From the NCBI RefSeq assembly GCF_000337795.1, contig NZ_AOLP01000008.1:310001-374000 (forward strand): a DNA stretch of 64,000 nt, given 5' to 3'. This document shows, piece by piece, positions 21,862-35,764 of the stretch; position 1 is the first letter of the stretch; each line of letters opens with the position of its first letter. The stretch comes from Haloferax denitrificans ATCC 35960. GTDB taxonomy: Archaea; Halobacteriota; Halobacteria; Halobacteriales; Haloferacaceae. The translations under genes were made by a program, and so were the position numbers. The notes below the pieces were generated by a model that was not told the origin of the DNA, did no database searches, and worked only from the letters and a program-made list of their open reading frames with translations.

Positions 21862-23037
21862 TTACTCGTAGCTGTGGACACTGCCGGTCGCGTTCGCTTC
21901 GACGTACTCCCAGTCGTAGTCGACGCCGAGGCCCGGCCCGTCCGGGACGGGAACGGTCCCGCGTTCGTCGATGGTATCGAACATATCCGAGTAGTCACCG
22001 CGGTAGACAGGGGGCTGGGTGTTGTTTGCGAGCGGGTGGACGAGCGCGAGTTCGTAGTAGTTCGCGTTCCGGGCGGCCGCCATGCAGTGTCTCTGCGCGG
22101 GGCCGGGCGCGTGGAACTCCACGTCGAGGCCGAAGCCCTCGGCGACGCGGACGATTTTCATCGCGCCGGTGATACCGCCGTCGTACTCGGGGTCCGCGCG
22201 GACGAAGTCGGTCGCCCCGCTGGCGACGAAGTCGGTGTGCGGTTCGAGCCCGCGGACGTGCTCGGTCTGGAGGAGCGGCGTGTCGATGAGTTCGCGGAGC
22301 TTCTGGTGGCCGTGCTGAGAGATGCCGCCGTCCCGATAGGGGTCTTCGAGCCAGAGGTAGTCGTACTCGTCGCACGCGCGACCGACTTTCAACGCGTCGG
22401 CGAACGTCGCCAGTTCGCACGCGGGGTCGACCATCAGGTCCATCTCGTCGCCGACGCGTTCGCCCACCGCCCGGACCGTCTCGACCTCTCGGCGCACGTC
22501 TCGCGCGTCGTCGCCCCCGCCCCAGCCGTGAATCTTGAACCCGGGGAACCCGGCGTCGCGACACTCCTCGGCGAAGTCGGCGTAGGCCTCGGGGGAGTCG
22601 AGACCGCCAGCATCGTCGCCGTGATACGTCGACGCGTACGTGGGAAGCCGCGTTCGGTACGTCCCGAGGAGTTCGTGGATTGGCGCGTCGTAGTACTTCC
22701 CGGCGAAGTCCCACAGCGCGATGTCGACCGGGCCGATTCCCATCCGGTCGTACTTCCGGAGCGCCCGCTTTATCTCGCTCCAGTGGCGCTCTCGTTCGAG
22801 GGGGTTCTTCCCGACGAGGTAGTCCGCGAACGTGTTAATCTGCGCCGCGCCCGGCGAGTTCCCACCGATGTACTCTCCGGTGATTCCCTCGTCGGTGTGA
22901 ATCTGCAACGCGAACAGTTTCCGCTCGGTCGTCTCTCCGGGGTCGTAGACGAGATTGAACCCGTGTCCGTCCGTCCCGACGTCGTCGAGCGTGTAACTGA
23001 ACTCTGTCGACTCTATCTTCGTGATAGTCGGTGCCAT
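21862..23037 (-). CDS. Enolase-superfamily enzyme, second copy
   Basis: A 391-residue mandelate racemase/muconate lactonising type enzyme. Candidate active-site residues are the Lys and His of FKIHGWGGG, the metal Asp of LMVDPACEL, Glu of WLEDPYRDGG, Glu of QTEHVRG, and His in EFHAPGPAQRH. The K-x-H pattern differs from the K-x-D of the copy at 5018, so the two probably act on different diastereomers or even different reactions (dehydration versus epimerisation or cycloisomerisation). ATG 23037 is supported by a TATA-like catttatta (plus 23061-23070). First gene of an operon with the Gfo/Idh/MocA oxidoreductase. Confidence 0.9.
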   Translation of the reverse strand: MAPTITKIESTEFSYTLDDVGTDGHGFNLVYDPGETTERKLFALQIHTDEGITGEYIGGNSPGAAQINTFADYLVGKNPLERERHWSEIKRALRKYDRMGIGPVDIALWDFAGKYYDAPIHELLGTYRTRLPTYASTYHGDDAGGLDSPEAYADFAEECRDAGFPGFKIHGWGGGDDARDVRREVETVRAVGERVGDEMDLMVDPACELATFADALKVGRACDEYDYLWLEDPYRDGGISQHGHQKLRELIDTPLLQTEHVRGLEPHTDFVASGATDFVRADPEYDGGITGAMKIVRVAEGFGLDVEFHAPGPAQRHCMAAARNANYYELALVHPLANNTQPPVYRGDYSDMFDTIDERGTVPVPDGPGLGVDYDWEYVEANATGSVHSYE

Positions 23038-23974: not shown

Positions 23975-25657
23975 ATGGCTCACGATACGAACGCGGAGAC
24001 GGGCGACTGGCTCGCCCGCGACGAGGCGGCACGAGCGTACGTCGTCGGGGCGACCCGTGCGGTCGAGTCTCTCCTCGCTTCGACCTACGGCCCCCGGGGG
24101 TCCACATCGCTCGTGCAGACGGTCGACGGGCAACAGGTGCCCGAGACCGTCGTGACGGCCGACGCGGGTCGACTCCTCGACGCAATCGAACGCGGTGACG
24201 GGTTCGTTCACCCGATTGCCGCGCTGTTCGTCGACGGACTCGACTCCGTCCGGCGCGGACTCCACGACGGGACCACGACCGCCGCACTCCTCGCCGCCGG
24301 CCTCGTCGACGAGGGCGCGCGACTCGCCGAAACGGGCCTTCACGAGGGCACGCTGACTGTCGGATACGCGATGGCGGCGAACCGTGCGGGCGAGGTGCTC
24401 GACGACCTCGCCCGCCCGATATCCCCCACCGACCGCGACCGCCTTCGCGAGGTCGCCGAGACGTCGATGACGACCGACCTCTCGCCGTCCCGTCGAGACG
24501 CGTACGCGGACGTCGTCTCGACGGCGGTCGCCGAACTCGCGGGGTCGACAGAGGGACAGTGGTTCGACACCGACGACGTCAGCGTGCGAACGCGCGCAGG
24601 TGACGGGGTCGAACTCGTCCGCGGTCACGTCATTCGGCGGCGACCGGGTGCACACGAGACGAGCGAGAAGAGCCGGCTCTCGTTCGACTGGACACCGTCA
24701 GTCGAGGGTGTTCTGTCGGACGCCAGAATCGCCGTCCTCGAACGCGACATCGATGTCGAAGCGACGGCGACAAACTTCGGAAGCGGCGGCGCGGCCGTCT
24801 CGCTCGGCTCTGCGGGGTCGGTGGCGGCCTACACGGCGGCGCGTACCGACGCGATAGACGACGTTGCGGCGAGCGTGGCCGACCTCGGTGTCGACGTGCT
24901 CGTCGTGCGCGCCGAACTCGACGATGCGGTCAAGACCGCGCTCGAATCGCGGGGCGTCGCGGTCGTCGACCGGGCGCAGTACCCGAAATCGGATATCCAC
25001 CGCGTCGCCCGTGCGACGGGCGCACAGGTCGTCGGCCACGTCTCCGACCTCGACGAGTCGAAGCTCGGCCGAGCGGGGCGCGTGACCGAGCGACGAGTCG
25101 GTGACGAGAAGTGGACGACCATCGGGGAGTGCGAGGGGTCGGTGTTCACCGTCGTCGTCGGGACGCCGACCGAACAGGGGCGGACGGCTCACGAGCGACT
25201 CGTCGAAGACGCCGTCGAGACGACGGCGATTGCGGCGCTGGACGGACAGGTCCTCCCGGGCGCTGGCGCGGCACCGCTCGCGGTCGCTCGGGACCTTCGA
25301 CGGTTCGCGGGCGGCGTCCGGGGGAAAGAGCAACTCGCAATCGAGGCGTTCGCCGACGTGTGCGAATCGCTCGTGCGGACGCTCGCCCGTAACGCCGGCT
25401 ACGACCCGCTCGAAGTCGTCGCGGCCGTTCGAACCGCACACGCCGACGCGGCGGCCGACCCGGCACCGGTCGGCCTCGACGTTACACGAGGTGAACCGGC
25501 CGACGCGTGGGAACTCGGCGTCGTCGAGCCTCGTCGAGTCTTCTCACAGGCGCTCGACAGCGCCGTGGCGACGTCGGAACAGCTCTCGACCATCGATGCC
25601 GTCGTCTCGCCCGGTCTCGATTTAGACGAACTCGACCCGCAGATAGAACACGACTAG
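23975..25657 (+). CDS. Divergent group II chaperonin (thermosome/TCP-1) homologue, ATPase residues kept
   Basis: A 560-residue member of the TCP-1/Cpn60 group II family, far from standard thermosome subunits. Nucleotide-site motifs are altered but the key aspartates remain: TYGPRG near residue 38, TADAGRLL with Asp63 in place of the NDGAT motif, HDGTTTAALLAAG with Asp98 in place of GDGTTT, and Asp412 in VEDAVETT, the hydrolysis position. GAGA replaces GGGA. The later GKEQLAIEAFADVCESL and NAGYDPLEVVAAVRTAH are family-typical. It converges on a second divergent chaperonin at 25715, 57 bp away. It may fold or assemble specific clients or form a mixed ring with that partner. Regular thermosome genes are expected elsewhere in the genome. 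Confidence 0.88.
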   Translation: MAHDTNAETGDWLARDEAARAYVVGATRAVESLLASTYGPRGSTSLVQTVDGQQVPETVVTADAGRLLDAIERGDGFVHPIAALFVDGLDSVRRGLHDGTTTAALLAAGLVDEGARLAETGLHEGTLTVGYAMAANRAGEVLDDLARPISPTDRDRLREVAETSMTTDLSPSRRDAYADVVSTAVAELAGSTEGQWFDTDDVSVRTRAGDGVELVRGHVIRRRPGAHETSEKSRLSFDWTPSVEGVLSDARIAVLERDIDVEATATNFGSGGAAVSLGSAGSVAAYTAARTDAIDDVAASVADLGVDVLVVRAELDDAVKTALESRGVAVVDRAQYPKSDIHRVARATGAQVVGHVSDLDESKLGRAGRVTERRVGDEKWTTIGECEGSVFTVVVGTPTEQGRTAHERLVEDAVETTAIAALDGQVLPGAGAAPLAVARDLRRFAGGVRGKEQLAIEAFADVCESLVRTLARNAGYDPLEVVAAVRTAHADAAADPAPVGLDVTRGEPADAWELGVVEPRRVFSQALDSAVATSEQLSTIDAVVSPGLDLDELDPQIEHD

Positions 25658-25714
25658 CTCGAACGCGATTTTCAAACCCCCGCAGAACAGAGATAGTGAC
25701 GACCGACCGTTCGG

Positions 25715-27271
25715 TTACTGCACCGGCGGCGACGGTTCGTCGTCCGCGAGGTTCGACGCGGAAAGCTGGCCGTCGATTCGGATGAGTTGGACCGCGAGGT
25801 CGGTCGCCGCGCCGAGGATAGCACGCTGGAGGCGACGGGGTTCGACGACCGGGTCGGCGTCGAGAACGTCCCGAATCTCGCCCGAGAGCGCGTCGACGCC
25901 CATCGACGAGCGGTCCTCCGTGTGGGCGACGCGCAGGCGGAGCACGCTCGTCCAGCCGTCGAGTCCCGCGCTGGCGGCCAACCCTCGCGGGATTTCCGTG
26001 AGCGCGCGAGCGAACCCCTCCATCGCGAGCTGTTCGCGGCTCGCGGTCCCGCGTGCGGCCTCCCGAACCGACCGTTCGAGGTCGATTTCCGTCGCCCCGC
26101 CGCCGGGGACGACCCGCTCGTCGGCGAGCGCCTGAAACGTCGCGCTAATCGCGCTCGTTGCACTGGCTTCGAACGCCGAGACCGACCGCGGGTCGGGTGC
26201 CCGACACAGGAGCGTGTACATCCGCTCGGCGGTCCCTTCGACGGTGACGAACTCCCGTCCGGCGAGTCGCTCGAACCCCACGTCGGCGGCTCCCATCGTC
26301 TCGGGAGTCACGTCTTCGAGCGTGGGGACGACCCGCCCACCGGTGTTGCGAACGAGACGCCGCATGTCGTCGTCGTCGACGCGCTCGATAGCGGTGAGTC
26401 CCGCGTCCGCCACCCGCGTCTTCACGCGGTCGTTGACTGCGCCCTGCGTCGCGATGAACCGACACCCGGCGTCGGCGGCGTTCGACAGCATCCGTCGGAA
26501 CTCGTCGCGCTCGTACGCACCGACGTCCGCCCGGTCTTCGAACGACTCCACGTCGAGGGAAATCGACTGTTTGGACGAGTCGGTGGCCCCGCCCAGTCGG
26601 GGGACGTCCACCGTCGACGAGAGGAGCGCGACGCCCGCGTCTCGTTGTCGACGGGGCATCGCATCCGAGACCGGTGGCGTCTCGATGACGACGCCGTCGA
26701 CGAGTTCGGTGTCGCCGACGCCGCCGATTCGCGCGACCACGTCGACGTTCGTCCGACCGCCGTCGACGGAGTCGTCGGCCGCCGCGTTCGTGACGGCGCT
26801 CGCGATGGCTTCGCTCACACGTCGGCGAGTGGCCGGGTTCCGCGTCCCCGTGAGTGCGGTCTCCGCGACCCGCTCGGCACCGACGAGTGAGAGCGGGCGG
26901 GCACGCGCGTCGAGTCGTTCGCTGGCGATGTCGAACGCGTCTCTGAACCCGCGTGCGACGGTCGTCGGGTGAAGTCCCCGTTCGATGAGGTCGTCCGCTT
27001 GGCTGAGCAGTGCACCCGTCAACAGCACCATCCGAGTCGAGCCGTCTCCCCACTCGTCACGGAAGTCGGTCGCCGCGTCCCGGAGAAGGGTCGTCGCGGG
27101 GTCGTCGAGTTCGAGGCGTTCGAGGAGCAGGGTACTCGAAGCGGTCGTGGTCACACGCCCGCCCGATTCGACGACGAGTTTGTTCGTCCCGAACGGCCCC
27201 AGCGTCGTCCCCACGAGGTCGCACACGCGGTCGACGTCGGCGAGGAGCGCGTGCCGTGCGTCGGAGTCCAT
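25715..27271 (-). CDS. Divergent group II chaperonin homologue lacking catalytic aspartates
   Basis: A 518-residue TCP-1/thermosome relative. LGPFGTNKLVVESGG matches the nucleotide loop LGPKGMDKML; the next motif NDGAT is TASST (Asp replaced near residue 45). WGDGSTRMVLLTGALL keeps Asp77 of GDGT, but the hydrolysis Asp in the DA motif before GGGA is replaced (SATSAISATF, then VVPGGGATEIDLE). C-terminal SREQLAMEGFARALTEIPRGL and VAHTEDRSSMGVDALSGEI are family-typical. So it probably binds ATP poorly or cannot hydrolyse it. ATG 27271 is chosen over GTG 27292. It diverges from the sugar ABC operon across 131 bp. Probably a structural partner of the chaperonin at 23975. Confidence 0.87.
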   Translation of the reverse strand: MDSDARHALLADVDRVCDLVGTTLGPFGTNKLVVESGGRVTTTASSTLLLERLELDDPATTLLRDAATDFRDEWGDGSTRMVLLTGALLSQADDLIERGLHPTTVARGFRDAFDIASERLDARARPLSLVGAERVAETALTGTRNPATRRRVSEAIASAVTNAAADDSVDGGRTNVDVVARIGGVGDTELVDGVVIETPPVSDAMPRRQRDAGVALLSSTVDVPRLGGATDSSKQSISLDVESFEDRADVGAYERDEFRRMLSNAADAGCRFIATQGAVNDRVKTRVADAGLTAIERVDDDDMRRLVRNTGGRVVPTLEDVTPETMGAADVGFERLAGREFVTVEGTAERMYTLLCRAPDPRSVSAFEASATSAISATFQALADERVVPGGGATEIDLERSVREAARGTASREQLAMEGFARALTEIPRGLAASAGLDGWTSVLRLRVAHTEDRSSMGVDALSGEIRDVLDADPVVEPRRLQRAILGAATDLAVQLIRIDGQLSASNLADDEPSPPVQ

Positions 27272-27369
27272 AATCGTCCTGTCGACGGTCACTCATCATA
27301 AGTGTACGGGACTGCCACACAATGGCATTCTCGGATTGTATATGATAATTCGGCAATAATGGGGAAACA

Positions 27370-27375
27370 TTTAAG
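27370..27375 (+). promoter_or_regulatory. TATA box of the sugar ABC operon
   Basis: TTTAAG preceded by the purine-rich gggaaaca, which fits a BRE, lies 27 nt before ATG 27403. It gives a leaderless or very short-leader transcript. Confidence 0.65.
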
Positions 27376-27402
27376 CCCCTCCTGTATGTTGACCTTACCA
27401 CA

Positions 27403-28986
27403 ATGTCACGTAGTGGCACGGGCAGTGGTGAACGTAGTGAAGACGCCAGCAACGAGACCGACAACCAGCCATCGAGACGACGATTCATGCAGTCGGCGGC
27501 GGCCGCGTCGACTGTCGGGGCACTCGGTGCGCTCGCGGGTTGTACTGGTGGCGGCGGAGAGAACACCGACGATAGCGGGTCCGACTCGAACACGGACTCT
27601 GGGTCAGACTCGAACACGGATTCGGGGTCCGACTCCAGCGGTTCCGAGAGCATTACCATCGACTACCTGAACGCACAGGCGGCCGAGAACTCTTCGATTA
27701 AGTCGCACTTCCAGGAGTCGCTCAGCACCTTCGAAGAACAGCAGGGTAACGTGACGGTGAAGATGCAGACGGCGTCCTACGGGGACATCCGGTCGAAGCT
27801 CGCCTCGACGGTGTCGAGCGGGAACCCGCCGACGATGGCCGAGTCCGGCGGTGGCGGTCTCCAGTTCTACCTCGACGGGAAGGTGCCCGACCATTCCCCG
27901 TTCATCGAGGGGACGGACCGACTCCCCGGCGACTACACGGCGGCGAACCTCGACTCCGCGAAGTACCGCGGTGAGTACTGGTCCGCGGGCGGGATGCGCC
28001 ACACGAACAGTAACCTCGGAATCAGTCCGAAGCTGTTCAGCCAAGTCGGCGTCAGCGACCCGGCCTCGGAGCTCTCGACGTGGAGCGGCTTCCTCGACGC
28101 AGTCCGTCGAATCGACGAGCAGACCGACGCCATCGCCTACGAGGAAACCGGCGTCCCCGGCGACCTCGAATCCTACTGGGGGTACGCGCGGACCGCGTAC
28201 ACCGGCGGTACCGACCCGTGGATGCGTCAGAGCGACGACCCGGAGAACCCGACTATCGTCGTCGCCAACGAGGACCACGAAGACCAGGGCAAGACCGACG
28301 GCATGATCAAGACCTGCGTCAAGATGGCCCACGAGTTCAGCAGTTCGGAGTCCGCCCAGCGCGGTGACGAGGAGATTCCGTCTCTCATGCTGACCGGCAA
28401 GGTCGCGTCGTTCAACTACGCCGTCCCGACGGCGAACCGCTGGCGCGCCATCAAAGAGGACGTCCAGTTCGGCTGGAACGACGGCGAGGGCGACTTCATG
28501 CTCCTTCCGCACCCGAAGGTCGACGCCGAGTTCGGTAGCAACTTCGGCATCAGCGAACTGGAGGGCGTCGAGGGCGAACACGGCGGCCACATGTGGGCGC
28601 TCGAACAGCAACAGACGCTGTTCAACGCGAGCGACGCGGAACAGAACGCCGCGTGGGACCTCAACATGTTCCTCCTCGGCGACGACGAGTTCGTCCTGCC
28701 CGCGTGGGGCGAACACTACGAGTCGCTCCCCGGACTCCAGCCCAAACTGCAGAAGATTCTCGACGAGTACGAACTCGCACAGAGCACCGAGCAGGCCTAC
28801 AAGAACGCCGACACCTACGGCAAGCAGTACTCGACGACGGGTGCGTCCTGGGACGTCAGAGACACCGACCCGATTCGGTGGACCGACATCAACGAGACGA
28901 TAAGCGAGGCCATCGCCGGACAGCACTCCATCGAGGAGACGCCGTCGCTCGTCCGCTCGCGCATTCAGGACCGCCTGGCGCAGTAG
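27403..28986 (+). CDS. Sugar ABC transporter substrate-binding lipoprotein
   Basis: A 527-residue extracellular solute-binding protein (family 1, sugar type). A twin-arginine signal SRRRFMQSAAAA is followed by the lipobox LAGC near residue 48, so it is exported folded and anchored by a lipid. A low-complexity linker of Ser-Asp-Asn-Thr-Gly repeats follows. The body shows the MalE-like VTVKMQTASYGDIRSKL start and YAVPTANRWRAI. It is longer than usual (about 420-450). It is first in the gene set with two permeases and an ATPase. Given the surrounding enzymes the cargo may be a sugar acid, uronate oligomer or glycoside; the sequence does not say which. Confidence 0.92.
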   Translation: MSRSGTGSGERSEDASNETDNQPSRRRFMQSAAAASTVGALGALAGCTGGGGENTDDSGSDSNTDSGSDSNTDSGSDSSGSESITIDYLNAQAAENSSIKSHFQESLSTFEEQQGNVTVKMQTASYGDIRSKLASTVSSGNPPTMAESGGGGLQFYLDGKVPDHSPFIEGTDRLPGDYTAANLDSAKYRGEYWSAGGMRHTNSNLGISPKLFSQVGVSDPASELSTWSGFLDAVRRIDEQTDAIAYEETGVPGDLESYWGYARTAYTGGTDPWMRQSDDPENPTIVVANEDHEDQGKTDGMIKTCVKMAHEFSSSESAQRGDEEIPSLMLTGKVASFNYAVPTANRWRAIKEDVQFGWNDGEGDFMLLPHPKVDAEFGSNFGISELEGVEGEHGGHMWALEQQQTLFNASDAEQNAAWDLNMFLLGDDEFVLPAWGEHYESLPGLQPKLQKILDEYELAQSTEQAYKNADTYGKQYSTTGASWDVRDTDPIRWTDINETISEAIAGQHSIEETPSLVRSRIQDRLAQ

Positions 28987-29053: not shown

Positions 29054-29995
29054 ATGTCACAAGAGACCGCACAACACATCAGACAGAAGTATGGGCTAGA
29101 GGAGACCACGCTCATGGACCGGGTCCGGGAGAACTGGATTGGCTACCTGTTCATCGTCCCGACGTTCGTGATGTTCACAATCCTGTTTTACTACCCCATC
29201 GTCAGAGGTGTCTTCCTGACGTTCACGAACACCCGACTCGGCGAGGCCGGTAGCTTCGTCGGTCTCGAAAACTACTCGTGGCTGTTGACGAACGACCTGT
29301 TTCACTTCGCGTTCGGCTGGACGTTGGCCTTCGTCTTCGGGACGACGCTCCTGCAACTGGTCATCGGCCTCGTCGCGGCCCTGCTGTTGAGCGAACTTCG
29401 AAGCCGGTGGCGAGACTGGACGAGCGCGATTATCATGTCCCCGTACTTCTCCGCGCCGCTCGCGGGAGGTGTCATCTGGATGTGGTTCCTGAACAGCGAC
29501 TTCGGGATGCTTCCCATGATAATCTCGGACTTCCTCGGCGTTCAGGCGCCGTCGTTCCTCGCCGACGGGATTTGGCCGTACGTCTCCCTCATCGTCGCCC
29601 AGTCGTGGCACGACTACGGGTACGCCGGCATCATCTACGCCGCCGCCATCGTGGGTATTCCCCGCGAGCAGTACGAGGCGGCGGCGCTGGCCGGTGCGGG
29701 GCGTCTCCGACGCTTCCGTGACGTGACGCTACCCCACCTCGTCACGCCGACGATTATCATCCTCGCGCTCCGCACCGCGTGGAACGTCGCGGAGTTCGCA
29801 CAGCCGTTCGAGCTGACCGGCGGTGGACCGGGGACTCGGACGATGTTGATGAGTATCCTCACGTACGAGACCGCGTACGTCAACCTGCAGTTCTCGCGGG
29901 CGTACACGCTCGGGATGGCCATGATTCTCGTCTCCATGACGGCGGCCATCTTCTACGTGACCGTCATCAAGGACGAAGAGGAGCTGTACGTCTAA
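29054..29995 (+). CDS. Sugar ABC transporter permease (MalF/UgpA type)
   Basis: A 313-residue inner membrane permease with six predicted hydrophobic helices. The first is FIVPTFVMFTILFYYPIVRG, the YYP sequence being usual for this class. The EAA motif that docks the ATPase is EAAALAGAGRLRRFRDVTLP near residue 215. It pairs with the second permease starting 3 nt after its stop. Together they form the channel for the solute brought by the lipoprotein at 27403. Confidence 0.93.
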   Translation: MSQETAQHIRQKYGLEETTLMDRVRENWIGYLFIVPTFVMFTILFYYPIVRGVFLTFTNTRLGEAGSFVGLENYSWLLTNDLFHFAFGWTLAFVFGTTLLQLVIGLVAALLLSELRSRWRDWTSAIIMSPYFSAPLAGGVIWMWFLNSDFGMLPMIISDFLGVQAPSFLADGIWPYVSLIVAQSWHDYGYAGIIYAAAIVGIPREQYEAAALAGAGRLRRFRDVTLPHLVTPTIIILALRTAWNVAEFAQPFELTGGGPGTRTMLMSILTYETAYVNLQFSRAYTLGMAMILVSMTAAIFYVTVIKDEEELYV

Positions 29996-29997
29996 CC

Positions 29998-30831
29998 ATG
30001 ATTAACGAAACTCGCCGCAGTCGATACCTGCTGTACGCCGCTCTCGGAGTCTTCGCGCTCTTCGCGTTGACGCCGTACTTCTGGGTCGTCCGAACGTCGC
30101 TTTTGACGAACTTCGCCGCGATTAACCCCGAGACGGGCTACCTCCCGGCGCTGGACGCCCTGACGCTCACAGCGTACACCGACATCTGGAACCAGTTCGA
30201 CTTCGTGACGTTCTTCCAGAACAGCGTCATCGTGTCGGTATCGGCGACGCTCATCTCGTTGGTGTTCTCGATTCCGGGCGCCTACGCGTTCGCACGGCTG
30301 GACTTCCCCGGGCGGAAGCTCCTGTTCTACACCGCCGTGTTCACGATTATGTTCCCCTGGATCGTCATCACCATCCCGGTGTACGAGGTGTTCTACGTCT
30401 TCGGACTGATAAACACCCTGCCGGGCATCATCATCGCGCTGTCTATCTTCGTCCTGCCGCAGACCATCTGGCTGTTACAGGGCTTTTTCAGACAGGGCAT
30501 CCCGGAGAACATCGAGGAGGCGGCGCTCATCGACGGGCACACGGAAATCGGTGCGTTCCTCCGCATCGTCCTCCCGCTTTCGGCACCCGCGGTGGGCGCG
30601 GCCGCCCTCTTTTCGTTCCTCACGGCGTGGAACAACTTCCTGTGGGTGTTCGTCCTCACGAGCGACGAAGACGTCCGAACCGCAACCGTGGCGATTCACT
30701 TCATCCTCGGGAGCGACGTGCTCCGCGAGTGGAACATCCTCATGGCGGCCGTGGTGCTACTGGTCGCACCGCCGGTCGTCTTCTACGGCCTCTCACAGCG
30801 GTACGTCGGAGAAGGCCTCGGAGGTGCCTGA
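29998..30831 (+). CDS. Sugar ABC transporter permease (MalG/UgpE type)
   Basis: A 277-residue permease with about six membrane helices beginning LLYAALGVFALFALTPYFWV. The conserved motifs are PGAYAFARLDFPGRKLL and the EAA loop EEAALIDGHTEIGAFLRIVL near residue 180. The ATG at 29998 lies 2 nt after the stop of the first permease. It forms the other half of the translocation pore. Substrate follows from the binding protein and is unknown. Confidence 0.93.
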   Translation: MINETRRSRYLLYAALGVFALFALTPYFWVVRTSLLTNFAAINPETGYLPALDALTLTAYTDIWNQFDFVTFFQNSVIVSVSATLISLVFSIPGAYAFARLDFPGRKLLFYTAVFTIMFPWIVITIPVYEVFYVFGLINTLPGIIIALSIFVLPQTIWLLQGFFRQGIPENIEEAALIDGHTEIGAFLRIVLPLSAPAVGAAALFSFLTAWNNFLWVFVLTSDEDVRTATVAIHFILGSDVLREWNILMAAVVLLVAPPVVFYGLSQRYVGEGLGGA

Positions 30832-30920: not shown

Positions 30921-32075
30921 ATGGCACGCGTTGAATTTGACAACATTACGAAAGTATTCGAAGACACGTCCGGCCCAATCATCGCCGTCGAGGAGCTGTC
31001 GCTCGACATCCCCGACGGCGAGTTCGTCGTCTTCGTCGGCCCGTCGGGGTGCGGGAAGTCGACGACGTTGCGAATGCTCGCCGGACTCGAATCGATTACC
31101 GACGGGGAGCTTCGCCTCAACGGCGAACCGGTAAACAACGTCTCACCCCGCGACCGCGACATCGCGATGGTGTTCCAGTCGTACGCGCTGTACCCCCACA
31201 AGACCGTTCGCGGCAACATGGGGTACGGCCTCAGCCTGAGCACCGACCTCAACGACGAGGAGGTCGACCGGCGAGTCGTCGAGGCCGCGGAGATGATGGG
31301 TATCGAGGACCTGCTGGACAAAAAGCCCGGTAGCCTCTCGGGCGGCCAGCAACAGCGCGTCGCGACCGGTCGCGCTATCGTCCGCGAACCGGCGGTGTTC
31401 CTGTTCGACGAACCCCTCTCCAACCTCGACGCCCAACTCCGCAAACACATGCGGACGGAGCTGTCGCGCATCCACTCCGAACTCGGCATCACGACGATAT
31501 ACGTCACCCACGACCAGGAAGAGGCGATGACGATGGCCGACCGAATCGTCATCCTCAACGACGGACAGCTTCAGCAGGTCGGCTCGCCGAAGGAGGTGTA
31601 CTACCGCCCGGCGAACACGTTCGTCGCCGACTTCATCGGGAGTCCGAGCATGAACTTCTTCGACGTCGACCTCGAAGTCGCAAGCGACGGGACCGGAACG
31701 CTCGTCGGCAACGGGTTCACCTACAGCGTCTCGGATTCGCTCGTCGACCTCGTCGGCGGCGAGGGCGAATACATCCTCAGCGTCCGACCGGAGAACCTCA
31801 ACGTCGACCCGTCGGCCCCCGACGAACGGTCCTTCGAGGCGACCGTCGACGTCGTCGAGGTCATCGGCTCTGACAACTTCATCTACCTCGACGTCGCGGG
31901 CAAAGAGTGTCGCCTCCGCGCCCCGTCCGAAGTCGAACCCGAAGAGGGCGACGTCATCACGGTGAGCTTCGACGAAGCCGACCTCCACCTGTTCGACCGC
32001 AACACCGAAGAAGCGCTGATCCACGGGCACGAACGAGCGGAATCGTCGCCGAAGATGATCGAATCGGAAGCCTAA
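30921..32075 (+). CDS. Sugar ABC transporter ATPase (MsmX/UgpC/MalK type)
   Basis: A 384-residue ATPase. Walker A GPSGCGKSTT, Q loop VFQSYALYPH, signature LSGGQQQRVATGRAIV, Walker B VFLFDEPLSNLD and the switch TIYVTHDQ are all present. The C-terminal TOBE-like part (from about 240; SVRPENLNVDP) is present, so regulation by an enzyme IIA-like factor is not expected but other control may apply. It has its own upstream AT-rich cataaataac at about 30879-30888. It powers the two permeases before it. One such ATPase may serve several importers. Confidence 0.94.
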   Translation: MARVEFDNITKVFEDTSGPIIAVEELSLDIPDGEFVVFVGPSGCGKSTTLRMLAGLESITDGELRLNGEPVNNVSPRDRDIAMVFQSYALYPHKTVRGNMGYGLSLSTDLNDEEVDRRVVEAAEMMGIEDLLDKKPGSLSGGQQQRVATGRAIVREPAVFLFDEPLSNLDAQLRKHMRTELSRIHSELGITTIYVTHDQEEAMTMADRIVILNDGQLQQVGSPKEVYYRPANTFVADFIGSPSMNFFDVDLEVASDGTGTLVGNGFTYSVSDSLVDLVGGEGEYILSVRPENLNVDPSAPDERSFEATVDVVEVIGSDNFIYLDVAGKECRLRAPSEVEPEEGDVITVSFDEADLHLFDRNTEEALIHGHERAESSPKMIESEA

Positions 32076-32167: not shown

Positions 32168-33223
32168 GTGACATACTCCATCTCGATTCTTCCGGGGGAC
32201 GGTATCGGCGTCGAAGTCATCGATGCGACGCGGCCGCTCCTCGACGACGCCGCACACGCGGGCGGGTTCGAACTCGAAACGACGCGATACGACTGGGGGA
32301 GCGAACGCTACCTCGAAGCGGGGTCGATGATGCCGGACGACGCCATCGAGACGCTCGAACCGTACGACGCGATTCTCCTCGGTGCCGTCGGACACCCGGA
32401 CATCCCGGACCACGTGACGCTCCGCGGGATGATGCTCCCGATTAGAAAGGCGTTCGACCAGCAGGTCTGCAAGCGCCCCTCGGTGCTCTTCGACGGCGTC
32501 GAGAGCCCGCTCCGCGGATACGACGGGGGCGATATCGACTTCGTCGTCTACCGGGAGAACACCGAAGGCGAGTACGCCGATGCGGGTGGTCACGAACATC
32601 GGGGCTACCCGCACGAAGTCGCGGTGCAGACGGCCGTCTACACCCGCCAAGGGACCGAGACAATCGTCCGTGCGGCGTTCGAGGCGGCCCGGTCGCGCGA
32701 GGGCCGGCTGACGAACGTGACGAAGTCGAACGCACAGGCACACGGGATGGTGTTCTGGGACGAAGTCGTCGAGGAGGTCTCGGCCGACTATCCCGACGTG
32801 ACCGTCGAACGCCTGCTCGTCGACGCGGCGTCGATGGACCTCGTCCGTCGACCGGACGAGTTCGACGTGCTCGTGGCGTCGAATCTCTTCGGCGACATAC
32901 TCACCGACATCGGCGCTATCGTCAGCGGGAGCATGGGGATGGCCCCCTCGGCGAACATCAACGTCGAGGGTCACTCCCCGTCGATGTTCGAGCCGGTCCA
33001 CGGGAGCGCCCCGGACATCGCGGGGCGGGGAATCGCCAACCCACTCGCGACTGTCCTCTCGGTTTCGATGCTCTTCGACCACCTCGGCGAGAGCGAGGTC
33101 GCCCGTGACATCTGGCGCGCGGTCGAGTCGCAACTCGCCGACGCCGACGCACCGCGAACCCCCGACCTCGGTGGGTCAGCCACCACCGAAGCGGTCGTCG
33201 AAGACATCAGAGCGCGCCTCTAA
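32168..33223 (+). CDS. Tartrate/D-malate-type dehydrogenase (isocitrate/isopropylmalate dehydrogenase family)
   Basis: A 351-residue NAD- and metal-dependent beta-decarboxylating dehydrogenase. LPGDGIGVEVIDATRPLLDD, VYRENTEGEYADAGG, VTKSNAQAHGMVFWDEVV and FEPVHGSAPDIAGRGIANP are present. The ENTEGEY motif with YADAGG resembles tartrate dehydrogenase/D-malate dehydrogenase (DmlA) rather than leucine LeuB. The start is a GTG at 32168 giving TYSISILPG, with gcttttgctctc before it at promoter spacing. It would oxidise and decarboxylate D-malate, tartrate or a related four-carbon acid to pyruvate or glycerate. This links to the four-carbon acid pair at 18431-20708 and the LarA-like genes, but is inferred. 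Confidence 0.87.
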   Translation: MTYSISILPGDGIGVEVIDATRPLLDDAAHAGGFELETTRYDWGSERYLEAGSMMPDDAIETLEPYDAILLGAVGHPDIPDHVTLRGMMLPIRKAFDQQVCKRPSVLFDGVESPLRGYDGGDIDFVVYRENTEGEYADAGGHEHRGYPHEVAVQTAVYTRQGTETIVRAAFEAARSREGRLTNVTKSNAQAHGMVFWDEVVEEVSADYPDVTVERLLVDAASMDLVRRPDEFDVLVASNLFGDILTDIGAIVSGSMGMAPSANINVEGHSPSMFEPVHGSAPDIAGRGIANPLATVLSVSMLFDHLGESEVARDIWRAVESQLADADAPRTPDLGGSATTEAVVEDIRARL

Positions 33224-33230
33224 TCGTCCG

Positions 33231-34367
33231 ATGCGCCGCCTCACCGGGAACCGCGATGGCGACGCGCGTCGGTTCTCGGCGCGACTGCGCCGTCTCGACG
33301 CGGAGACGTTCGCCCGACTCGTGTCTGACCTCTGGGTCGAACGCGGTCGGTCCGTGACGCGGGAGGGGACCACCGTCGCTGTCGACGACGGGCGCACCAC
33401 GCGTCGCCTCGTGGTGTGTCACCGCCCTCCGCCGACGGTCGCCGGCGATGTCGTCGTCACGTCCCGACTGTCCGACGACCCGGGCGTCGTCGACGCGGCC
33501 GAGTTACTCGATATCGTTCGGTACGCGGTCGACAGAGAGCGGTCGGCCGAGATACTCGTGAGCTATCTCGACCCCTCGGCGGACCGGTTTTGCTCGCCGC
33601 GATTCGGCCCCGACGACGACGCGCGCGGCGTCGACTGGCGGGCGACGCCAACGGGTGGCACCGTCGTCGCTGTCGTGGTGGTACTGCTCTTTGCGGGCCT
33701 CGGCGTGGTCCTCGCCCACGGCGGGTTGCCATCGGTCGCGGATGTCCCCGCCACTGCGACGGCCGACCAGCGCGAGGCGGAAGCCGCGACGACGGCGCGA
33801 CCGCAGTCCGAGAGCGTCGTTCGAGCGGGTGCGAACGGTACCGAAACCGCGTTTTCCGACGCCGAGACGGTCTCGTACTCGGCCTTCGGATGTCCCTCTC
33901 CACCGAGAAACGTTCACCCGTCGGCACTCGCCCCGGCCGTCGTGCCGGGAGCGAGCGCCGGCGGACTCGACGGGTGGCAACGGACTTCGGCGGCGTCCGA
34001 CCCGACCGCCGAGATGGACCGGCCTCCCGCCCCGACTGCGCGGCACGCGGCGATGTACGTGCCACCGTCCGGCCACAGGCTGACACTCGGAATCAGCCTG
34101 TGGCCGTCTCGGCAAGCCGCGCAGTCGGTCGCATCGACGTTTGCACCGCGCGACGAGACGGTCGCACGGTGGGGTCAGTACACGCTCATCGTCAGTGGGA
34201 CCACGCCGGACGGCGACCCCCTCGCGAGAGACCGGACGACCGTCTGGTCTCGACCGCTCCTCTCGGAGGTGCGGTCCCCGTCGGGGAGTCGGCTCGGGTA
34301 CCGGTGTGTCGACGCGTTGCTCGACGAGGCCACCCGTCGACGGCCGCGACCCCCGACCACCCCATGA
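33231..34367 (+). CDS. Membrane-anchored protein of unknown function, possible restriction-endonuclease-like N-domain
   Basis: A 378-residue protein I do not recognise by name. Residues 1-115 resemble the haloarchaeal Mrr-like/endonuclease-fold domain in general pattern (LRRLDAETFARLVSDLWVERG, then a strand with VDDGRTTRRLVVCH), although the usual active-site D-x-K pattern is not clearly present. One strong membrane helix follows (TVVAVVVVLLFAGLGVVLAH, about residues 143-162). The rest is an extracellular, Ala/Thr/Pro-rich part with a late globular segment (about 275-350). It starts 7 nt after the dehydrogenase and is followed by two other unknown genes. I give no function. Confidence 0.7.
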   Translation: MRRLTGNRDGDARRFSARLRRLDAETFARLVSDLWVERGRSVTREGTTVAVDDGRTTRRLVVCHRPPPTVAGDVVVTSRLSDDPGVVDAAELLDIVRYAVDRERSAEILVSYLDPSADRFCSPRFGPDDDARGVDWRATPTGGTVVAVVVVLLFAGLGVVLAHGGLPSVADVPATATADQREAEAATTARPQSESVVRAGANGTETAFSDAETVSYSAFGCPSPPRNVHPSALAPAVVPGASAGGLDGWQRTSAASDPTAEMDRPPAPTARHAAMYVPPSGHRLTLGISLWPSRQAAQSVASTFAPRDETVARWGQYTLIVSGTTPDGDPLARDRTTVWSRPLLSEVRSPSGSRLGYRCVDALLDEATRRRPRPPTTP

Positions 34368-34690: not shown

Positions 34691-35764
34691 ATGAACAAAC
34701 TCCGCGGGTTCGTCGTCGGTGGCTGTCTGACGCTCTCTGTCGCGCTCGCCTTCGTTGGCCTCCACTACGGCCTCGGCCCCGCTTCGAGAGACGGGTACGT
34801 CACGGCGCTCGTCGCCGTCGCCCTCCTCCCGACGATTCCGCTGGTAGCCGCACACGCGAAGTTCGCGCTCCGACGGCTCGCCGAGTACCGACGAAACGGC
34901 TCAGGACTCAGTTTCGAGCGCGACTCCATCTTCGTCTCGGCCGATACGGTGGGCGACGCCGAGCGGGCACTCAGCGACATCGAAGCGGCCGTCGAGGCGG
35001 CGGACGAGTACGACGAGTGTCGCCGCGACAGATTCGGTGAGGGGCGCGGCCTCAACGTTCGCCACACCGGGTTCCACAACTCGTTCGTTCGCGTCGCCAG
35101 CGACGGCCGCCTCGTCGTGACGGGGGCGTCGCAGAACACGCACTCGCTGGCGTCGCTCGTCGAGCGCGTCGCGTCGCTGACGATGGAACGAACCCGCAGT
35201 CACCCCTTCTTCGCCCGCAAGCCAGTTCGAGGCGCGCCGCGGGCGTTCCTTGGGCTCGCGCTCGTCGTGGTGTTCGTCTTCGGTGCCGGCGGCGTCGTGG
35301 GTGCGGCCTATCCGGCCGACGCGTACAGCGCACCCGAACGGGTCGTCCTCGTCGGCTACGACACGCGCGCGGTGGCAACCCCCGGATACGACGCGACCGA
35401 CGCCACGCTCGACAAGGCCGCGTTCCTCGTCGACTCACTCGGCGAAGAGGCGGTCGAAATCGGTTGGGACCGCGACGACGCGGACAAGCTCACCACCCAC
35501 GGGCGACAGGCGGTCTTCCTCTCCGAGACGGTATCGACACAGCTCGGCGCGGTCCGGGAAGACGCGTCGGCGACGGGCGAGCGCGAACGCGTCGCCGCAC
35601 TCGAAGCCGACCTGCACGCCGCGGAGTGTCGGGTCGCCGCGCGGATAACCAGCCGCGTCGAATCGGGGAACGTCGCGGGAGACGCGAGCGCCCTCGTCAG
35701 TGCGGGCGAGTCGCTCCGCGCGAGCGCGGCAGACGCCGGCTACGCCTGTGCGACTGAGGCGTGA
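34691..35764 (+). CDS. Membrane protein of unknown function
   Basis: A 357-residue protein not recognised. It has two N-terminal membrane helices (about 7-27 and 36-55), a cytoplasmic alpha/beta part (about 70-170) with GLNVRHTGFHNSFVRVASDGRLVVTG-like strands split over two segments, a third helix near 185-207 (FLGLALVVVFVFGAGGVVGA), and a long C-terminal helical part with two Cys (AAECRVAAR and GYACATEA) that may bridge outside the cell. It belongs to a three-gene block of unknown function inserted between sugar-acid genes. Confidence 0.72.
   Translation: MNKLRGFVVGGCLTLSVALAFVGLHYGLGPASRDGYVTALVAVALLPTIPLVAAHAKFALRRLAEYRRNGSGLSFERDSIFVSADTVGDAERALSDIEAAVEAADEYDECRRDRFGEGRGLNVRHTGFHNSFVRVASDGRLVVTGASQNTHSLASLVERVASLTMERTRSHPFFARKPVRGAPRAFLGLALVVVFVFGAGGVVGAAYPADAYSAPERVVLVGYDTRAVATPGYDATDATLDKAAFLVDSLGEEAVEIGWDRDDADKLTTHGRQAVFLSETVSTQLGAVREDASATGERERVAALEADLHAAECRVAARITSRVESGNVAGDASALVSAGESLRASAADAGYACATEA

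Follow-up and report, generated by a model that had tools for sequence, protein, structure and literature searches.

Chaperonins are generally seen as housekeeping machines, and client-dedicated members are rare. The closest described relatives of the genes considered here are the archaeal alpha/beta thermosomes (Haloferax Cct1-3 and those of Thermoplasma, Thermococcus KS-1 and Mm-cpn), a family whose rings are often hetero-oligomers of two or three subunits. The vertebrate BBS/MKKS proteins (MKKS, BBS10 and BBS12) are divergent group II chaperonins with a dedicated assembly role. An altered ATP-hydrolysis motif is found in some of these chaperonin-like proteins (PMC2846930). MmoG, a GroEL-like protein encoded in the operon of soluble methane monooxygenase clusters, is thought to serve that system (PMC9324122), and offers a case of a chaperonin gene placed next to the metabolic system concerned. 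When hydrolysis was blocked in one subunit type of the Thermoplasma alpha/beta thermosome, the complex still assembled and the other subunit type cycled ATP; the dead subunit was proposed to stay loaded with ATP and capable of substrate binding (PMC5983026). In Mm-cpn, the D386A mutant binds ATP but does not hydrolyze it (PMC5019054).

Here, we describe two divergent chaperonin genes, A and B, in a 64,000-nucleotide stretch of Haloferax denitrificans ATCC 35960 (contig NZ_AOLP01000008.1, positions 310,001 to 374,000), referred to below as the window. We see roughly an even chance that A and B together make an additional group II chaperonin reserved for a single ABC sugar (acid) importer, each supplying one subunit type of a mixed ring that would act on a client from that importer. 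Such a system would differ from the BBS/MKKS proteins, which are eukaryotic and of an unrelated lineage, in consisting of two inseparable partners, one degenerate and the other mostly intact. It would differ also from MmoG, which is group I-like, single and serves an enzyme, whereas A and B are group II proteins that occur as a pair and are tied to an importer. Searches of an open-access library brought up nothing recognizable as the A/B pair.

Gene A (23975..25657, forward strand, 560 aa) and gene B (25715..27271, reverse strand, 518 aa) are open, full-length reading frames in convergent orientation, with 57 bp (25658..25714) between their stop codons; the coordinates, layout and gap given in an earlier note on this DNA were all confirmed. 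The pair is flanked by sugar-acid genes on one side and by a CUT1-type ABC importer on the other. No known RNA element reached the gathering threshold anywhere in the window. PDB, NCBIfam and Pfam searches placed both proteins among the group II chaperonins. The Pfam Cpn60_TCP1 model matched over its full length, with 317 bits for A and 336 bits for B against a cut-off of 34, covering model positions 2-487 and 3-484, respectively, of 490. Both proteins share the fold of the archaeal thermosomes over their full length. However, they are only 30-33% identical to the canonical subunits of their own genome, and none of the cut-offs (400-671 bits) of the NCBIfam thermosome models NF041082, NF041083 and TIGR02339 was reached (292-296 bits for A, 299-309 bits for B). 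The genome has exactly five Cpn60 genes, consisting of three canonical genes located elsewhere and the A/B pair. A and B are therefore extras beyond the canonical chaperonin set and, in contrast to the thermosomes, are encoded in an importer island and in few genomes.

Alignment with the genome's own three canonical Cct proteins showed that the catalytic aspartates of A at the NDG, GDGTTT and DA positions are Asp63, Asp98 and Asp412, a set that A shares with the thermosomes. The corresponding residues in B, which also carries the family signature CRAPDPR, are Ser45, Asp76 and Ser373, so that B, unlike the thermosomes, lacks the two hydrolytic aspartates. Each of the residue calls in the earlier note (Asp63, Asp98 and Asp412 in A; aspartate losses with retention of GDG in B) proved right. 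Neither protein has the lysine that corresponds to Mm-cpn K161 or the GGM tail of Cct1 and Cct2. The engineered Thermoplasma thermosome with a dead alpha or beta subunit, a mixed hydrolyzing/non-hydrolyzing ring, may be regarded as a laboratory version of the state proposed for A and B, with the differences that another aspartate (that of GDG) was mutated there and that the thermosome is a general folding machine (PMC5983026).

The same pattern was seen across 21 genomes. The NDG aspartate of B was lost in all 21 and the DA aspartate in 20 (G116 has the sole B with Asp at this site), while the GDG aspartate was kept. The catalytic set of A was complete in 17 genomes, and the other four each lacked one aspartate, with Ser at NDG in G179, Asn at DA in G165 and G203, and Thr at DA in Halosimplex. 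The suggestion of an active/inactive subunit pair therefore holds for B, which is nearly always stripped of its hydrolytic aspartates, but is weakened by the four A proteins and by the G116 B protein; judged from these sequences, the division is a rule, strong yet not absolute, rather than a law. The dN/dS ratios from five genome pairs were 0.10-0.24 for both A and B, indicative of purifying selection; B is thus not decaying. This, together with the recurrence of the pattern in 21 genomes, argues that the pair is not a product of chance or decay.

AlphaFold models of A and B, built from alignments of 17 orthologues each, had a mean pLDDT of 82 and displayed the full three-domain fold with a group II apical domain. 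The top Foldseek matches to both models were Mm-cpn and KS-1 thermosome chains, which matched end to end with a TM score of about 0.8-0.88. A conserved four-residue insert is present in the stem loop of A, and none in that of B. Since the stem loop of thermosomes is a contact site between neighboring subunits, this insert may matter for A/B contacts. A chaperonin fold could also have been repurposed as a nucleotide or sugar sensor or a scaffold, with a part in regulating the importer or its genes and none in folding. The loss of hydrolytic residues in B and some A proteins and of the K161-position lysine in both is consistent with such a role, as is the linked membrane protein c10 (see below). 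MmoG, too, is an operon-encoded protein of unknown function, for which roles in active-site assembly, activity and folding are merely suggested (PMC9324122). Nevertheless, we consider a purely regulatory role unlikely, as conservation is about even across the three domains, the models predict an intact fold throughout, and most A proteins have the full catalytic set.

Orthologues of A (E-value 1e-124 or better) were found in 17 of 392 genomes of the order, representing 12 of 95 genera, and orthologues of B in the identical 17; the searches scored only the best candidates in each genome. A wide gap in score separated these 17 genomes from the rest in the searches with A, B and permease 1 of the importer, and not one of the 392 genomes had either chaperonin gene without the other. 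Among the listed members of the genus, only the species of the window and Haloferax massiliensis have the pair. When the B alignment was run against 84,980 species, each represented by a single genome, it picked up 13 loci, all from haloarchaea, and extended the list to Halogeometricum pallidum, Halegenticoccus soli and Halosimplex aquaticum. A separate search of plasmids turned up the pair in Halomarina sp. BND7 and on two more plasmids from Haladaptatus. Of the 17 genomes, 15 have A and B side by side in convergent orientation. In G116, a distance of about 3.4 kb separates them, occupied by c10 and the binding-protein gene, and on the Haladaptatus sp. QDMS2 plasmid (G130), they are separated by about 31 kb, B being still near the importer. 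The latter is the one instance among the 17 of the unlinked orthologues that, according to the earlier note, would refute the proposed pair. On a further point which that note had proposed to check, the two genes always co-occur, and the importer is adjacent or at least in the same genome.

The importer genes, all on the forward strand, form a complete CUT1-type set. An SBP_bac_1 substrate-binding lipoprotein (27403..28986) is followed by permease 1 (29054..29995), permease 2 (29998..30831) and an ATPase of the UgpC/MalK type (30921..32075; UgpC). The binding protein has a Tat signal and lipobox (RRRFMQ...ALAGC), which a regular expression detected in 19 of 20 binding proteins; the lone miss, in Halogeometricum pallidum, is probably due to an over-extended ORF start that moves the signal outside the scanned stretch. 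An orthologue of the binding protein was present in all 18 pair genomes searched, and the next homologue beyond these genomes was weaker by many orders of magnitude. Permease 1, searched independently over the same 392 genomes, had orthologues in exactly the 17 genomes with A and B, with a large gap to anything else. The structural relatives of the binding protein gave merely weak matches, to Lmo0181 and XylA, as a clue to the substrate. The B and binding-protein genes diverge from a shared promoter region (27272..27402) with TATA-like elements on both sides; inspection by eye of 14 such intergenic regions revealed TATA-like boxes and no conserved palindrome that might serve as a shared operator.

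The sugar-acid genes beside the pair encode an enolase-superfamily (MR/MLE) sugar-acid dehydratase (21862..23037, reverse strand), an oxidoreductase, PdxA and a four-carbon-acid kinase. A gene for a tartrate-dehydrogenase-like enzyme (32168..33223, forward strand) lies 3' of the importer and is found at this position in 9 of 18 loci. It is followed by the gene for c7 (33231..34367, forward strand), a protein with one hydrophobic span that had homologues in 12 of the 20 pair loci inspected. In a clustering of the neighboring genes, all loci of sufficient length shared the binding protein, two permeases and ATPase, while the catabolic enzymes, including the dehydratase and the tartrate-dehydrogenase-like enzyme, varied between loci, which identifies the importer as the constant partner. 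The enzymes could be ruled out in this capacity, since close homologues of the dehydratase (roughly 73% identity or more) are far more widespread, occurring in 140 of the 392 genomes, about 120 of them without the pair. Of the earlier suggestion that the chaperonins were dedicated to the island enzymes or the importer, the second part is thus supported, in that one orthologous importer is always present, and the first is weakened. TIM barrels, such as the dehydratases and aldolases of these islands, are classic chaperonin clients, and sugar-acid enzymes are near almost all pair loci, as expected if the pair helped to fold them. However, given their variation between loci and the many dehydratase genomes that lack the pair, as well as a Halosimplex locus with pair and importer and no sugar-acid genes within the fetched stretch, this explanation is quite unlikely.

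A further gene of the island, c10 (34691..35764, forward strand), encodes an uncharacterized membrane protein with about three hydrophobic spans and no Pfam match, listed in the public record of G130 as "hypothetical protein". All 18 pair genomes searched have a single homologue, the 42 other genomes searched have none, and c10 is likely to be a further component of the system. Alignment of the homologues showed two N-terminal hydrophobic spans and a central one, and a conserved (G)FHNSFVRV motif.

In a phylogeny with Cct1-3, as proposed in the earlier note, A and B each formed one clade (SH-aLRT 100) outside the canonical clade, and the inner groupings of the two clades matched nearly perfectly. 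The deep part of the tree, on which a sister relationship of A and B would depend, consists of long branches. Pairwise distances in A and B were highly correlated (r 0.94). The distances in A also tracked those of the importer ATPase (0.885) more closely than those of the binding protein (0.69); co-evolution thus does not single out the binding protein. Some A and B sub-groupings unite genomes of different GTDB families and, since these matching groupings cut across families, the unit appears to have been transferred whole, moving as one. The pair unit is plasmid-borne in Haladaptatus and Halomarina. Such plasmid locations and family-crossing gene trees would also be expected if the pair merely traveled with the importer on mobile islands and plasmids, with no functional coupling, and tight linkage alone would make the co-inheritance of A, B and importer likely. 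We nevertheless regard simple hitch-hiking as very improbable. None of the 392 genomes has one without the other, and A, B and importer have been kept together where the gene order is broken (G130, G116, G210 and G380). Furthermore, both chaperonin genes are under purifying selection, and four other divergent chaperonin types also adjoin importers.

If A and B are indeed a chaperonin dedicated to the importer, they would co-assemble into one ring, in which B would bind ATP without splitting it. Half of each ring would then be ATP-locked and open to the client, while A would cycle. This arrangement is consistent with the Thermoplasma (PMC5983026) and Mm-cpn D386A (PMC5019054) experiments. The client would come from the importer itself, the binding lipoprotein being the most plausible candidate because its Tat signal implies that it must fold in the high-salt cytosol before export, and c10 may tie the chaperonin machine to the membrane. 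Folding before export is common to Tat substrates; however, most haloarchaeal binding proteins are Tat lipoproteins, and most of these manage without a private chaperonin. The strict genetic bond of the pair to a single importer, found in hosts near a tractable laboratory model and with one subunit nearly always devoid of hydrolytic residues, makes it possible to test how far the subunits of a hetero-chaperonin can specialize into hydrolyzing and non-hydrolyzing roles, and whether halophiles require dedicated assistance in the cytosol to fold the proteins that they export by Tat.

An initial survey of the pair genomes and a sample of others, which drew on a targeted list of 27 genomes, revealed other divergent haloarchaeal chaperonins. 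A permease with an ATPase or binding protein, taken to mark an importer, was present within about 5-8 kb on each side of 9 of 16 divergent copies, compared to 0 of 15 intermediate and 0 of 20 canonical copies. The difference between 9/16 and 0/20 (Fisher p 1e-4) is indicative only, given that the 16 include several relatives and that part of the transporter queries were taken from the same loci. This suggests that the importer link extends to a wider class of divergent chaperonins. A more far-reaching proposal, which we hold tentatively and think rather doubtful, is that group II chaperonins have been enlisted time and again in haloarchaea, each for the private use of a single ABC importer. 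A and B would then be the most elaborate example, a natural half-dead hetero-ring that works with c10 to fold or hold the Tat-exported binding protein and to pass it to the export machinery, making chaperonin, export and import one transferable unit.

The survey also bears on the possibility that A and B have no ring of their own and join the canonical rings of Cct1-3, where their role would be client-specific or regulatory, like that of CCT subunits or BBS-type proteins. Three or more canonical subunits are encoded in every pair genome checked. Several solo divergent chaperonins (L150, L156 and a hydantoinase-linked group, see below) have lost catalytic aspartates with no partner encoded alongside, which rules out the notion that a dead subunit occurs only beside an encoded active partner and keeps the possibility of joining canonical rings alive. 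Conversely, the strict co-occurrence and mirrored evolution of A and B fit mutual partners rather than two independent guests, and neither protein has the GGM tail of Cct1 and Cct2. We consider entry into canonical rings conceivable, yet doubtful.

Several further chaperonin genes were noted. One solo divergent group (L145, L147, L151, L157 and L159) keeps both catalytic aspartates and adjoins a second, different type of ABC sugar importer. A thermosome-like gene on the Halorussus vallis plasmid NZ_CP100002.1 (L211, 7932-9551) has an ABC transporter cluster on either side and an alpha-glucuronidase gene nearby. The hydantoinase-linked solo group (L007, 8204-9991, and L148, L149 and L158) has Lys at the catalytic Asp position, with 67-69% identity among L007, L148 and L149; it adjoins hydantoinase-like and deacetylase-like genes, named by eye from sequence, and no importer. 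The intermediate extra chaperonins (L160-L169, L171 and L172) share a C-terminal GYPWA(V/I)GH-like motif, and their DA site is often changed; no importer is nearby. Finally, chaperonin genes with a single in-frame TAG, possibly reflecting pyrrolysine or other recoding, were observed in G429, G394, G403 and G421, all from one genus of the phylum.
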